Assembly (NCBI RefSeq): GCF_902506165.1
Contig: NZ_LR733817.1
Coordinates: 2,387,408-2,451,407 of the forward strand
Direction: 5' to 3'
DNA length: 64,000 bases
Source: Bosea sp. 29B
GTDB lineage: Bacteria; Pseudomonadota; Alphaproteobacteria; Rhizobiales; Beijerinckiaceae
Part shown: piece after piece, positions 42,573-49,100 of the stretch
Layout of the letters: each line of letters opens with the position of its first letter
Position numbering within the stretch: position 1 is the stretch's first letter
Translations under genes and position numbers: made by a program
The notes under the pieces: model-generated
The model's input: only the letters and a program-made list of their open reading frames with translations
Database searches by the model: none
What the model was told of the DNA's origin: nothing

Positions 42573-42706
42573 TTCTTTCGAGTGTATTTTATGGTAAGCT
42601 CACGTTAAAGTTGAAATCATTTCTCCTGTCAACTCCTGTCACCAATGCGCTCACGCCAGCGCCGCGCCCTCTCGCATCCGCCGCAAATCGCGCCCATATT
42701 CCGGCC

Positions 42707-45382
42707 ATGCCCAAGAGCACCGACAACACCACCGACACTGCCCCCAGCAAGGCAAAGGCCGCGAAGAAATCCGCCGCGACTCGCACGCCGAACTCGAAGG
42801 CGAGCAAGCCCGAGCTCAAGCCGCTCGACGGCTATCTCGCCGACCTGCTCAACCCGGCGATCAACCGCGGCAAGGCGGTGCCGGGCGGCGCGTCAGGCTT
42901 CAGCGACACACCGCAGGCCGGTTACGAGGCGCGGCCGAGCGCGCCGGGCGAGAGCAAGCCGCGAAAACTCTCCAAAAAAGCCGATGCCGCCTTCGATCCT
43001 GACAGCGACAGCGCGGCCTCGCTGACGGCGAAGTCGCTGCAGGCGCTGCTCGAGACCGGCAGCCCCTTCATCGAGCCCGGCAAGCCCTGGACGCCGCACC
43101 GGCCCGATCGTCCCGAGAAGTCGGAGGGCGGCGTCCGCTTCCAGATGAAGTCGGATTTTGAGCCGGCCGGCGACCAGCCGACCGCGATCGCCGATCTCGT
43201 CGACGGCGTCCGCCGGCAGGAGCGCGACCAGGTGCTGCTCGGCGTCACCGGCTCGGGCAAGACCTTCACCATGGCGCAGGTGATCGAGAAGACGCAGCGC
43301 CCGGCGCTGATCCTGGCGCCGAACAAGACGCTGGCGGCCCAGCTCTATGGCGAGTTCAAGAGCTTCTTCCCCGACAACGCGGTCGAGTACTTCGTCTCCT
43401 ATTACGACTATTACCAGCCGGAGGCCTACGTCCCGCGCTCGGACACCTATATCGAGAAGGAATCCTCGATCAACGAGCAGATCGACCGCATGCGCCATTC
43501 GGCGACGCGCTCGCTGCTGGAGCGCGACGACGTCATCATCGTCGCCTCGGTCTCCTGCATCTACGGTATCGGCTCGGTCGAGACCTACACGGCGATGACC
43601 TTCTCGCTGAAGCTCGGCGAGCGCATCGAGCAGCGCCAGCTGATCGCCGACCTCGTGGCGCTGCAATACAAGCGCACCCAGCATGACTTCGCCCGCGGTT
43701 CGTTCCGAGTGAGGGGCGACACGGTCGAGCTCTTCCCGGCCCACTATGAGGACCGCGCCTGGCGCATCGGCCTGTTCGGCGACGAGGTCGAGTCGATCTC
43801 GGAATTCGATCCGCTGACCGGGCAGAAGACCGGCGAGCTCGAATTCATCAAGGTCTACGGCAATTCGCACTACACCACGCCGCGCCCGACGCTGAACCAG
43901 GCGGTCAAGTCGATCAAGGAGGAGCTCAAGGGCCGGCTCGACGAGCTCAACCGCATGGGCCGCTATTTGGAGGCGCAGCGGCTCGACCAGCGCTGCACCT
44001 TCGACATCGAGATGATCGAGGCGACTGGCTCCTGCAACGGCATCGAGAACTATTCGCGCTACCTCACCGGCCGCAAGCCGGGCGAGCCGCCGCCGACCCT
44101 GTTTGAGTACCTGCCCGACAACGCCCTCGTCTTCACCGACGAGAGCCACGTCACGGTGCCGCAGATCGGCGCGATGTATAAAGGCGACTTCCGCCGCAAG
44201 GCGACTTTGGCCGAATACGGCTTCCGCCTGCCCTCCTGCATGGACAACCGGCCGCTGCGCTTCGAGGAATGGGATGCGATGCGCCCGTCCTCGGTCCATG
44301 TCTCGGCGACGCCCGGCGGCTGGGAGATGGACCAGACCGGCGGCGTCTTCACCGAGCAGGTCATCCGCCCGACCGGGCTGATCGACCCGCCGGTCGAGAT
44401 CCGCCCGGCCAAGCACCAGGTCGCCGACCTCTTGGACGAGGTCAAGGAGGTCGCGGCCAAGGGCTACCGCACCCTCGTCACCGTGCTGACCAAGCGCATG
44501 GCCGAGGACCTGACCGAGTACCTGCACGAGAACGGCGTGCGCGTGCGCTACATGCACTCCGACATCGACACGATCGAGCGCATCGAGATCCTGCGCGATC
44601 TGCGCCTCGGCGCCTTCGACGTGCTGGTCGGCATCAACCTGCTACGCGAGGGCCTCGACATCCCCGAATGCGGCTTCGTCGCCATTCTCGACGCCGACAA
44701 GGAGGGTTTTCTGCGCTCCGAGACCTCATTGATCCAGACCATCGGCCGCGCCGCCCGCAATGTCGACGGCAAGGTCGTGCTCTATGCCGACCATGTCACC
44801 GGCTCGATGGAGCGCGCGATGGCCGAGACCAATCGCCGCCGCGAGAAGCAGGAGGCCTACAACGCCCAGCACGGCATCACGCCGCAGACGATCAAGCGCG
44901 CCATCGGCGACATCCTCGGCTCGGTCTATGAGCGCGACCATGTCACCGTCGACAAGGGCCTGGTCGAAGGCCCGACCAGCGGCCACAACCTCAAGGCCGC
45001 GATCGCCGATCTCGAGAAGCGCATGCGCGAGGCCGCTGCCGACCTCGAATTCGAGACCGCCGCCCGCCTGCGCGACGAGATCAAGCGCCTGCAGGCGACC
45101 GAACTCGCCATCGCCGACGACCCGCTCGCCCGCCAAAGCGATGTCGAATCCTCCGCCGGCAAATACCGGGGCGAGCGCAGCTACGGCGCCTCGGCCAATC
45201 TGCCGACCCGCGCCCGCAAGCCGACCGACGCCGACATGGGCCCGCACAACTGGGGCGGCGGGGAGGGGAAGCCGAAGGCGAGCGTCGCACGGCCGAGGAA
45301 GCCTACGCTGGACGAGATGGGCCCGGTGCCGGAGGCGCGGCCGAAGGGGGCGGGGGAGAGAAGGAGAAGGAGGGGGAGATAA
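42707..45382 (+). CDS. uvrB: Excinuclease ABC subunit B
   Basis: DNA-damage recognition helicase of nucleotide excision repair, 891 residues. Walker [15 protein letters not shown] with Lys185, [20 protein letters not shown] beta-hairpin, DESHVT Walker B, helicase motifs ATPGGWE and QTIGRAARN and a C-terminal UVR motif ([30 protein letters not shown]). Compared with E. coli (Lys45) it has about 140 extra N-terminal residues, Lys/Ala/Ser-rich, and a long basic tail. I saw no LexA-type GTTC repeat upstream. Confidence 0.97.
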
Positions 45383-45416
45383 TGCACCCTCTATCCAATT
45401 TTCGGACCAGTTATGT

Positions 45417-47624
45417 TCACTTGACCTCCTTTAATTGACCAGCATCAATGGCAGGCTTGAGAGTTTTGGTGATTCCACCTGCGTCTTTCGAGGCAATTAT
45501 TAACAATTTTCTTTCAGCTCGACTAAGCCCAAGATACAATTCAGATAAGAATCGCCTGAAATGGTAACTTCTATATTTTCCTTCCGGAACCTGATCTTCA
45601 TTTGCGTCTATCAGTATGACGGTATCAAATTGAAGGCCGGCCACGTATTCTGGGGTACTCAGAATGGAACGCTTTCCTGAGTAACGCAGTTTCTCGGTGT
45701 CATCCCTCGAAGATATAGTCACAATTTCTGGATATTGAGTAACCGTCGCTGCTAGATATTCCCCAAATCTATCTGAATCCATACAAAGAATTGCAACTCG
45801 CCCCTTTCTCTGTTGGGCTTGCTTCCCAAGGTCGAGGGCGGACGTTATCGCAAGTTTATAAACCTGAAGTTTTCCATCAACGGTGCGGAACTCAGGGATG
45901 TCCCCGCTCTCCGTTGAGCTAGAGCCTTGCGGAACATCCCAATCTTCAGGAAAGTCAAGGCCAGGCGCGGCATCGTGGACCGAGCGGATTACGCGTCCTA
46001 TCTCCGGGGTGTATCTGTACACTTGTAAGAGATCGATTTTTTCAGAGTTAGGTAGGCGCGCGCGCTCAAGTATCCCTTCAGAGCCATTGTCACGCTCATC
46101 ACTAATATTCGTAAATGTCTCTCGCGGTGATTGTTTCGGATCGAGAGCCATTATCACCGTGGGTGGATTCTCAGCGTTTCTCAAAAGATTATGGAATATC
46201 AATCTCTCCTGCGCATTGAAAAGGTGCATCTCATCAACAAAGACTACATCGTATCCGTTCTTTTGACGTGCGGCTTCCCAGAAGAATGTTGATAAATCAT
46301 TCAGATAGTCGCTAATAATTTGATCTGAGGAAATCCAGCGCTTCTCGCGCAGAGCGCTCATAAACATCGCCCAAAGAGCGAAAACGGCAGATTTTTCAGC
46401 CGCGTTGTCTAGCGGCATCATCCAGCGCAAGCGCCTAACGCGAAGGTATCGCTCCCGATCGGCAGCATGGGTGAGAATGCCCTGAGCAGCAAGTACGCAG
46501 CCGAATTCTACCAAGAGGTCCCAACTGAATAGCTTTCGCGCCGTTGAGCCGGGTGCCGCTTCCACGAGTCCAACAAAATCCTCGGTACAACCACTGCGAT
46601 AGGCGATCCAATCCCCGGCTACAAACTCATCGATAACACTGGAGATTTCGCGAAGAGCAAGGCGCTTTCCGTCCTCGCTATCAATGCCAAGTGGCTCTCG
46701 ATCGATTCGAGAATAATCACGATTATTTGCTAAATACAGAAGTGGTATTACTGATATATCTGAAATTGAATCTGGAAAAATATCCATCTTGCTTATCAAT
46801 CTGTCGACGTTCTCAGCCATCGCCCAGCTATGGGTAACAAATAGAATTCGCTTCGGGTCTCCAGATTCATCGGCATCATATTTTGTCTTCAGTGCTTTTA
46901 TAATCATGGCGAGAGTTTTGCCAGTGCCGGCGCTGCCTCTCAGTCTCAGAGGTCCCGATAAGGGGTTGTCCACAAAGCGAAGTTGATCTTTAGAGAGATG
47001 TAGTGGATACCAGTCAGAATAGGTGAATCCCTGAGATATGCTGCTCGGCTCAACGTCGCTCAGGTCTATGCTGCCCTCTGAAAAATCCTTTTTGCTGAGC
47101 GGAACAGCTGACAGTGCGAGCGGGAGTCCTTCTCTCGCGCGCTTATATACATCTAAATCAGGTTGGTAGGTTGCCAAATCCTGCATCTTAGGATCTGTCC
47201 CAAACCCATACACGTAGACGTCGGCTGAACCAAGGGGGCCTTGCTCCGCCGCTATCCGATCGGAACGTCCATATCCGAACGCAAATATGGAAATCTTATT
47301 CCCCGCATGAAACGGCATCCAGCGAGGGTTTAGGCTCACGGCGCTGTCAAAATAGCGAAACGCTATGCGCGCGCAGCGGTCAAACACCGATCTTCTATCT
47401 CTAGAATCTATTCCCTCAAACAGCCCTTGCTTTTGCCTCTGTATTATTAGGATTCTGGTGTCCGGGCTGCAGCTGTGAGTAGCTATATATATCGCCTCAG
47501 GACGTGCAATAATAAATATATCTCTCAATGAGATAAGGTCATCAAAGTTGACGAGCCAATCCGGTGCCAATGCTGACGACGAAAGGATATGTAGCGCATT
47601 CTCCGTAACAACAATAGGTATCAT
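45417..47624 (-). CDS. UvrD-like superfamily 1 helicase of an AT-rich island
   Basis: A 735-residue protein with SF1 helicase motifs: Walker A LRGSAGTGKT (Lys236), Walker B DVVFVDEMHLF (Asp464-Glu465), LDPKQSPRET as motif III, VYRYTPEIGRV as motif IV and STPEYVAGLQFDTVILIDA plus LYLGLSRAERKLLII as motifs V and VI. About 220 N-terminal residues before the Walker A match no domain I know. The start was put at 47624, 1 base after the partner's TAA. GC content is far below the surroundings (for example 17 of 60 bases at 46741-46800), so this gene is acquired. With the partner gene it is a candidate defence system. Confidence 0.85.
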   Translation of the reverse strand: MIPIVVTENALHILSSSALAPDWLVNFDDLISLRDIFIIARPEAIYIATHSCSPDTRILIIQRQKQGLFEGIDSRDRRSVFDRCARIAFRYFDSAVSLNPRWMPFHAGNKISIFAFGYGRSDRIAAEQGPLGSADVYVYGFGTDPKMQDLATYQPDLDVYKRAREGLPLALSAVPLSKKDFSEGSIDLSDVEPSSISQGFTYSDWYPLHLSKDQLRFVDNPLSGPLRLRGSAGTGKTLAMIIKALKTKYDADESGDPKRILFVTHSWAMAENVDRLISKMDIFPDSISDISVIPLLYLANNRDYSRIDREPLGIDSEDGKRLALREISSVIDEFVAGDWIAYRSGCTEDFVGLVEAAPGSTARKLFSWDLLVEFGCVLAAQGILTHAADRERYLRVRRLRWMMPLDNAAEKSAVFALWAMFMSALREKRWISSDQIISDYLNDLSTFFWEAARQKNGYDVVFVDEMHLFNAQERLIFHNLLRNAENPPTVIMALDPKQSPRETFTNISDERDNGSEGILERARLPNSEKIDLLQVYRYTPEIGRVIRSVHDAAPGLDFPEDWDVPQGSSSTESGDIPEFRTVDGKLQVYKLAITSALDLGKQAQQRKGRVAILCMDSDRFGEYLAATVTQYPEIVTISSRDDTEKLRYSGKRSILSTPEYVAGLQFDTVILIDANEDQVPEGKYRSYHFRRFLSELYLGLSRAERKLLIIASKDAGGITKTLKPAIDAGQLKEVK

Positions 47625-47625
47625 T

Positions 47626-48483
47626 TTACGCAATCCTTTCAAAAAATCTTGTAGAAGTGCTCTTGCAGCGATCTTGATAGGAATTTGGTAGACCAATATC
47701 AGTAAACACTCGCGCCAAATTTTGCATAATCGCAAATTTGTAAGGTGCGGCAATTCTTCCAACCCGGCGAGCTTTTGCCTCTCCGCTTTGAAGATCGCTT
47801 GGCTTCAATGCTATATCGCTGATATTACATTGAGAAATATGACGAAGCATCAAGAATATTCCGTCATCAGGCTCTGATTCGACATGCGGTATATGAAAAA
47901 CATCACCCGGCAAGCTCGAAACGCTTGACTGGAATTCTAATGCTAGTTCGCTATCTGTTTCTGACGTGGCCTTGGCATTTTTAAGCGGGTAACATTTTCT
48001 AAGCAGATTAATATCAGGTTCCATTTTAGTGGAGAGTTCTCTAAGTTCTAGTACAGATTGGGTCAACGCTTTCAAAGAAAGGCGCTGTCCATTATCTGCA
48101 ATATTCAGTTCATCGATTAATTGATCGATTCCCACCCGCTCCAGCCAGGAAATAGCAGCGAGTTCTGAAATTTCAGTTCTAATTTTTTCTTTTTCCATAA
48201 GTATAGAGTTTATTTTCTTAACAAATTTCTTTATTGTTTTTTCAATTGTTGATTCAAATTTGCTGTCCTTCCAGAAATGCCAAATATAATCTTCTGTTAT
48301 TAAGGCTGGAATATAGGAAATTATTCCTCTAGTTTTCTTTCTTTCTAGATCGCAGTCTGCTGTGATTACGAGCGAGTATGTCTTCCAAGGCCTTGTATAG
48401 CTTGGACCTTCCCAGCAAAACATGTCGCCCTGCCTAAGGGGGCGGTCGCCCAATTCCGTCTCATACTCAGCATCGGAAATCAT
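47626..48483 (-). CDS. Unknown partner of the SF1 helicase
   Basis: A 285-residue protein not assigned to any family. Near the N terminus LRQGDMFCWEGPSYTRPWKTYSLVITADCDLERKK has an ordered strand-like pattern with TADCD as its core. A Lys/Glu/Ile-rich coiled-coil-like stretch follows (about residues 77-106), and the C terminus is basic (KSTSTRFFERIA). There is no signal or membrane segment, so it is cytoplasmic. It is AT-rich like the helicase and one base upstream of it, hence clearly one operon. Weak ribosome-binding site. A TADCD protein paired with a helicase is the core of the proposed system. Confidence 0.75.
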   Translation of the reverse strand: MISDAEYETELGDRPLRQGDMFCWEGPSYTRPWKTYSLVITADCDLERKKTRGIISYIPALITEDYIWHFWKDSKFESTIEKTIKKFVKKINSILMEKEKIRTEISELAAISWLERVGIDQLIDELNIADNGQRLSLKALTQSVLELRELSTKMEPDINLLRKCYPLKNAKATSETDSELALEFQSSVSSLPGDVFHIPHVESEPDDGIFLMLRHISQCNISDIALKPSDLQSGEAKARRVGRIAAPYKFAIMQNLARVFTDIGLPNSYQDRCKSTSTRFFERIA

Positions 48484-49100
48484 AGTGGAAGTCGCTAGTT
48501 TAGGTTCTGACGAGTGTTTCGCTTAATGCATGCGTTGATTCTGCATCAAATCCAAGATGCGGATTAAGGGCAACTCGTATCGATCAACCGAAGGTAGCTA
48601 GTGCGGGTTGCTGAGTGCGGCGCCAATGCTCACCCGTTCCGTAAAGCGTATCGGCATAAATGCCGGAACGGACGATCAGGGCCGTTGCGCTTATCCCCGC
48701 CCTCCGAACCTCCCGTATAATCCTTGCACCCATCCCCGAGGGGCGGCCGACCGGAGGCATGTCGTTTGGCGGGGTGGGCGCGGTGCCTGCGGGCGAGGGT
48801 TGCGCCTCGCTCCCGGGAGGCTTCGGGAACCGACCTGGGGGTACTACGGCCCCTGCGCGAGGAGCTCGCTAGACCGCGCCGGCTCACACCGGCGCGACAG
48901 AAGCGCGGCCCGGAGCTTTCAAATCGCCGCCTGGCGGAGCGCCACGGGGCGTGCGGATGGTGGCTCAATCCATCCGCGCCGCGTCCGTAGCTCACGGAAG
49001 CGGATCACAAACCAGCGCCTCGCGGCGCTCCGCTGCCCCTCACATGCGACAACGCCCGCAGGATGAGCCTGCGGGCGGGGAAAAGCTTGGGCGCGATCTT
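48484..49100. other. Long non-coding stretch upstream of the AT-rich operon
   Basis: More than 600 bases with no convincing gene. 48484-48610 is AT-rich and holds the operon's promoter; GCATC(8 bases)GATGC at 48543-48560 could be an operator. 48634-48671 is an inverted repeat CCGTTCCG / CGGAACGG with an inner GGCATAAATGCC. 48716-48721 reads TATAAT. 48731-49000 is very GC-rich with several perfect stems, for example GCGAGG/CCTCGC near 48792 and GCGCCGG/CCGGCGC near 48887. 49053-49077 forms CGCCCGCAGG/CCTGCGGGCG. A structured RNA is possible. No known RNA signature (RNase P, tmRNA, SRP, 6S) was recognised. Confidence 0.5.

Follow-up and report, generated by a model that had tools for sequence, protein, structure and literature searches.

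A two-gene, AT-rich island directly past uvrB in Bosea sp. 29B belongs to a widespread, mobile gene pair that probably guards bacteria against viruses. The island lies in a stretch of 64,000 nucleotides (contig NZ_LR733817.1, positions 2,387,408 to 2,451,407 of the forward strand; hereafter the window) and is encoded on the minus strand. It comprises a UvrD-like superfamily 1 (SF1) helicase (45417..47624, 735 residues counted from the ATG) and a partner (47626..48483, 285 residues) predicted to form a MazF/CcdB-fold barrel with a helical insert. We lean slightly towards reading the pair as a mobile anti-phage module, in which a UvrD-like motor and a MazF-fold effector would form a complex directed against phage nucleic acid. 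The operon pairing, the predicted fold of the partner and the hotspot in which the pair lies are the main support for this reading.

Exactly one base (47625) separates the two genes; a 781-residue frame is the same helicase open reading frame (ORF) begun at an upstream TTG and overlapping the partner. The GC content of the pair is 0.458 vs 0.670 for the remainder of the window, about 15 standard deviations under the mean of same-size windows elsewhere in it (overlapping windows of 3,067 bases outside the island: mean 0.670, standard deviation 0.014, minimum 0.641). Within the island, 17 of the 60 bases at 46741-46800 are G or C. An AT-rich minus-strand pair one base apart, with this same local G/C count, was what an earlier note on this DNA had described, and the coordinates and base composition bear it out.

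To follow the pair beyond the window we scanned one genome per species (84,980 species) and obtained 141 relatives, of which the best 80 were retained, giving 79 loci. Adding three loci from the genus of the window, one being the window itself, brought the helicase loci checked for pairing to 82, and the partner lies directly upstream on the same strand in 78 of them. In the other four no partner match exceeded the threshold of 15 bits. L063 and L067 are truncated where their contigs end; L071, at the start of a contig, is fragmentary, with a neighbour scoring 14 bits, and the neighbour in L079, homologous as judged by eye, scores 13 bits. Starting from the partner, the helicase adjoins in 3/3 plasmids and 2/2 viral contigs. 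The viral contig L182 carries a helicase match of 34 bits without a partner match, and L181 starts inside or just before the helicase. The two proteins also diverge together, with helicase and partner distances correlating at r 0.914 and rho 0.645 (29 of 30 genomes, one with a split partner having been dropped). Four loci (L020, L036, L041, L077) have the partner frame broken into two adjoining ORFs, by mutation or assembly error. Two proteins, P0042 (Bradyrhizobium) and P0065, are chimaeras that begin as the partner and finish as the helicase, with differing join points; these are apparently decayed copies, as if deletions had taken out the motor.

The 75 complete helicases other than that of the window come from Pseudomonadota (46), Actinomycetota (22) and four other phyla (7). 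Their tree contains 6 phylum changes (minimum 5) and 16 class changes (minimum 7), so that the family is old and mostly confined within phyla, with transfers inside them. The pair's GC lies more than 3 points under that of its flanks in 57 of the 70 loci with flanks (median -0.10), the reverse being seen in one locus. Within the window's genus any match was found in 3 of 61 genomes, the two besides the window's at 24-26% identity; a close match occurs in the window's own genome only, so that the genus as a whole does not keep the pair at this position. Low GC, this scarcity and the different sequence that relatives carry at this site all fit the earlier suggestion of an acquired module.

By its motifs the helicase is assigned to the UvrD/Rep type of SF1: Walker A, DExx and motifs III-VI are intact (Q214, GSAGTGKT at 230-237, D464-E465, D495, Q498, R537, G663, Q665 and R702), and PF00580 matches at 27.4 bits against a Pfam cut-off of 23. 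Each of the 14 key residues checked is identical across 36/36 aligned helicase rows, the window's included, in agreement with the claim that every SF1 motif is present. Among them are G230, G233, G235, K236 and T237 of Walker A (residues 230-237; 46914..46937, minus strand) and D464 and E465 of motif II (FVDEM, residues 462-466; 46227..46241, minus strand). Searched by sequence against solved structures, the helicase alone reached a best E-value of 0.26; real matches came only from the helicase profile, HelD being the best. The N-terminal region (residues 1-200; 47025..47624, minus strand) is alpha/beta in the structural model. The earlier note had put it at 220 residues and could fit it to no domain, and at about 200 residues it stays without assignment: no family was found for it in Pfam, PADLOC, NCBIfam or PHROGs, and the fold-search rows, which cover mainly residues 195-735, barely probe it. 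Pfam gave no NERD domain in the window helicase. A RelE/ParE origin of the region, prompted by the order of its secondary-structure elements, was rejected, since the scores did not support it: 13.5 over 11 columns against residues 1-95 (best of 25 shuffles 12.1) and 11.9 against residues 1-195 (shuffles up to 17.2). PemK scored 14.7 (shuffles 14.4) and 15.0 (shuffles 18.9) against the same stretches.

The partner, described earlier as a protein with a TADCD motif and no known family, indeed gave no match in Pfam, NCBIfam, PHROGs or PADLOC up to an E-value of 10, a limit at which HMMER filters still discard most weak matches. Its predicted structure (predicted local distance difference test score 94.5) has the MazF/CcdB toxin fold, with a helical insert of about 130 residues (residues about 63-190; 47914..48297, minus strand) whose predicted helices divide the barrel into two halves; the predicted barrel and C-terminal helix match nearly the whole MazF chain. 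The TADCD motif (residues 41-45; 48349..48363, minus strand) holds Cys44-Asp45, invariant in 78/78 rows. The barrel profile shows similarity to PemK, and strand 1 begins with a conserved Gly in 76/78 partners and 26/27 PemK proteins. In MazF/PemK mRNA interferases an Arg before strand 2 and a Thr/Ser after strand 3 are catalytic. The alignment at these positions is weak; in it the PemK Arg (24/27) falls on partner residue 35, which is Arg in 18/78 partners, and the Thr/Ser (26/27) on residue 61, which is Leu, Val or Ile in 63/78. Neither catalytic residue is thus conserved in the partner, which gave no match to PF02452, and PemK was absent among 25 of the 28 Pfam families listed for the 52 rows of the partner family (A1). 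Sequence searches of solved structures gave best E-values of 1.1 for the partner and 0.14 for its profile. The viral structure library returned a single match below 0.001 (9.8e-4, unnamed, with a low template-modelling score), followed by PemK-like phage proteins at 0.085 and above. We rejected a sirtuin/Argonaute-associated reading of the partner, which concerned single members only: a distant homologue in L075 matches the Aga_SIR2 model at 1.1e-5 with partial coverage, and one A1 row matches the PDC-M61A model at 3.4e-4. The nucleic-acid targeting proposed in the earlier note has support for the helicase; for the partner that support comes only through the predicted MazF/CcdB fold.

The site past uvrB is a cargo hotspot across the genus, with AT-rich cargo that mostly differs from genome to genome. 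uvrB itself (42611..45382, plus strand), named correctly in the earlier note as the adjacent gene, forms the left edge, and in 10/10 relatives the DNA match reaches to about 25 bases from its end. A uvrB match at E 1e-300 was found in 61 genus relatives; 50 were taken and 11 omitted, many with uvrB near a contig end. Two (L222, at a contig end, and L143) had no downstream sequence, leaving 48 stretches (L140-L142, L144-L149, L183-L221), a few of them short. ORFs were called mechanically (at least 100 residues, GC below 0.585), and some (L205-L207) may be spurious. One or more AT-rich ORFs were called at the site (45383-48689) in 35 of the 49 genomes (48 relatives and the window), and the helicase-partner pair in the window's genome only. 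The first 1.2 kb past uvrB has less than 58% GC in 28 of the 43 stretches long enough, compared with 0/43 at 4.5-5.7 kb away. The cargo forms 48 protein clusters, three of them common to more than one genome and most without identification. Identified cargo includes DarT, GmrSD_N (in three genomes), RelA_SpoT, ResIII/DEAD, SLFN_AlbA_2 and DUF7946. No other evidence speaks as strongly as this variable cargo for placing the pair in the defence and conflict gene pool, and the earlier claim of a hotspot stands firmly on it. The other ground given for that claim, a truncated restriction gene nearby, fell away: none was recognised in the first 45 residues of the window's ORFs, a search that did not extend to a family-model scan of the whole window. 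In two close relatives, proteins of the RelA/SpoT-domain and AlbA_2/Schlafen type at the uvrB site (L145 12434-13702, L147 2894-4204) are themselves candidate defence genes.

The conserved right edge of the hotspot (48690..49083) recurs after quite different cargo in roughly half the stretches from relatives, the match starting from 48690-48693 in 18/48 and by 48773 in 23/48. It may be an attachment site, a recombination site or an RNA; no tRNA and no Rfam family match was found there. Between it and the partner gene lies the leader (48484..48689), judged by its position to be the probable promoter region.

Carriage on mobile elements was seen elsewhere. E. coli has a version of the pair whose helicase is 23% identical to that of the window; near-identical copies of this version, covering at least 80% of the pair, occur in 109 of 5,426 complete E. 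coli genomes, always on plasmids, and any match was found in 113. Among plasmid records with a helicase match, 83/91 are predicted to be conjugative. In a P2-like (Peduoviridae) Klebsiella phage the pair sits between the portal gene and the block leading up to the integrase.

We see no third gene that belongs to the module. The commonest neighbour family besides the pair, an ABC-type ATPase as judged by eye, occurs in 7/79 loci and the next in 5/79; pairs recurring beside different genes, some of them defence genes, were among the checks the earlier note had asked for. In L013 the neighbours match the phospholipase, cyclase and E1-E2 models of the cyclic oligonucleotide-based antiphage signalling system (CBASS), and the patatin family of this locus recurs in L015 and L022; L031 has a neighbour matching the CBASS E1-E2 model, and L004 a type I restriction neighbour. 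Multiubiquitin, ThiF and DUF6527 genes occur in 3/6 annotated plasmid regions inspected. On three plasmids from two genera (L087, L138, L139) the pair adjoins multiubiquitin, ThiF-family and DUF6527 genes, and two of the three have a second, larger UvrD-type helicase nearby. At E 1e-10, 82 PADLOC models matched among 124 neighbour proteins from 20 loci vs 8 among 126 uvrB-flanking proteins of the same genomes, a contrast that is overstated by redundancy of the models, 30 of which fell on one L013 protein (those listed being E1-E2). Some matches on both sides look housekeeping, ClpB being one. An anti-phage role thus has support from location (a hotspot with DarT and GmrSD, CBASS and restriction neighbours, carriage by prophages and plasmids), and from this we infer the function itself.

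In the anti-phage module that we favour, the SF1 motor, equipped with an N-terminal domain of its own, would engage abnormal or invading nucleic acid, driven by ATP. The inserted helical domain of the partner would probably dock on the helicase, and the partner would be the effector: a pocket formed round Cys44-Asp45, and not round the Arg-Thr pair of MazF, would let it act on nucleic acid or on the machinery that handles it. A more specific version is possible, though we hold it tentatively: an immune module present in at least six phyla, in which a MazF/CcdB-fold effector with a so far undescribed Cys-Asp(-Lys-Gln) active site would be driven or licensed by the UvrD-family motor, the toxin fold having been rebuilt by the helical insert. 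Several observations weigh against the favoured reading. Known defence genes adjoin the pair in some loci only, and 5/10 hand-picked neighbour proteins had no PADLOC match. Helicase and uvrB distances correlate at r 0.521 but at a rho of 0.702, above that of the pair, so that the genes diverge together and no excess over following the host can be claimed. Transfer between phyla appears rare, since the phylum changes in the tree exceed the minimum by so little. Foldseek alone gave the partner weak E-values (best 0.08), and its full-length profile aligned to PemK with a probability score of 2.7, the aligner straying into the insert. As the PemK Arg and Thr positions are not conserved, the effector chemistry of the partner is a guess.

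The main rival holds that the pair resembles a toxin-antitoxin system, a toxic MazF-fold protein being restrained by the helicase in addiction or abortive infection, with maintenance of the element as the first benefit. The toxin-like predicted fold, the near-constant pairing and the predominance of predicted conjugative plasmids speak for it, and toxin-antitoxin pairs with a helicase, PsyrTA for one, are known. Yet a 735-residue ATPase with all its motor motifs seems expensive for a mere antitoxin, and the partner lacks conservation of the PemK Arg and Thr. We regard this explanation as rather unlikely, and such action could coexist with defence. The MazF/PemK/CcdB superfamily shares with the partner the predicted barrel, the barrel profile similarity and the strand-1 Gly; the partner differs in its 130-residue helical insert, its invariant Cys-Asp and the lack of a Pfam PemK match, and the pair has a helicase in the antitoxin's place.

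Gabija likewise has two genes, one encoding a UvrD-like SF1 protein, GajB; the other, GajA, is an OLD/TOPRIM nuclease. One report describes GajB as UvrD-like, non-unwinding on DNA and complexed with GajA (PMC10681800). A Gabija-like complex, in which the helicase would serve as scaffold or sensor without unwinding and the partner would be a nuclease restrained until infection, would fit the most frequent PADLOC GajB model, which matches 15/36 helicase rows, although weakly (best GajB E-value 2e-8). However, Pfam and PADLOC searches found no OLD/TOPRIM domain in the partner, across the helicase rows the most significant E-value (2.4e-12) is that of the PADLOC model C3a187 'NERD+UvrD' and not of GajB, and the pair's helicase differs by its N-terminal region and full motor motifs; we consider such a complex improbable. 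Least probable is a HelD-like pair for DNA repair or transcription conflicts, gained for stress tolerance rather than defence. The housekeeping helicases UvrD, Rep and PcrA have neither the N-terminal region nor the partner.

No described system was found to account for the anti-phage module. C3a187, Nhi and AbiO match the SF1 core in 8, 10 and 16 of 36 helicase rows, respectively (AbiO 7.4e-6 and Nhi 3.3e-5 for the window helicase), but their best stretches in the window helicase span part of the core only. Helicase-DUF2290 also pairs a helicase with a small partner, and is reported in P4-like satellites and prophage hotspots (PMC9122126). DUF2290 is not among 25 of the 28 Pfam families listed for A1, and the window partner has no Pfam match. 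In PADLOC-DB 2.0.0 (2023) no system covers both genes, the partner having no match at E 10 and the helicase weak matches only. In the literature we found no account of a helicase with a MazF-fold partner, which supplements or subscription papers may still hold, no helicase system on record that has this partner and no mention of four accessions. The module would be new in composition, a helicase plus an effector.

If this reading is right, a widespread and easily cloned two-gene system would join bacterial immunity, the MazF/CcdB toxin fold would be tied to helicase-based defence, and the invariant Cys-Asp site would be a testable target. The hotspot beside uvrB, with small AT-rich cargo in most of the genus genomes examined, is itself a convenient catalogue of candidate defence genes.
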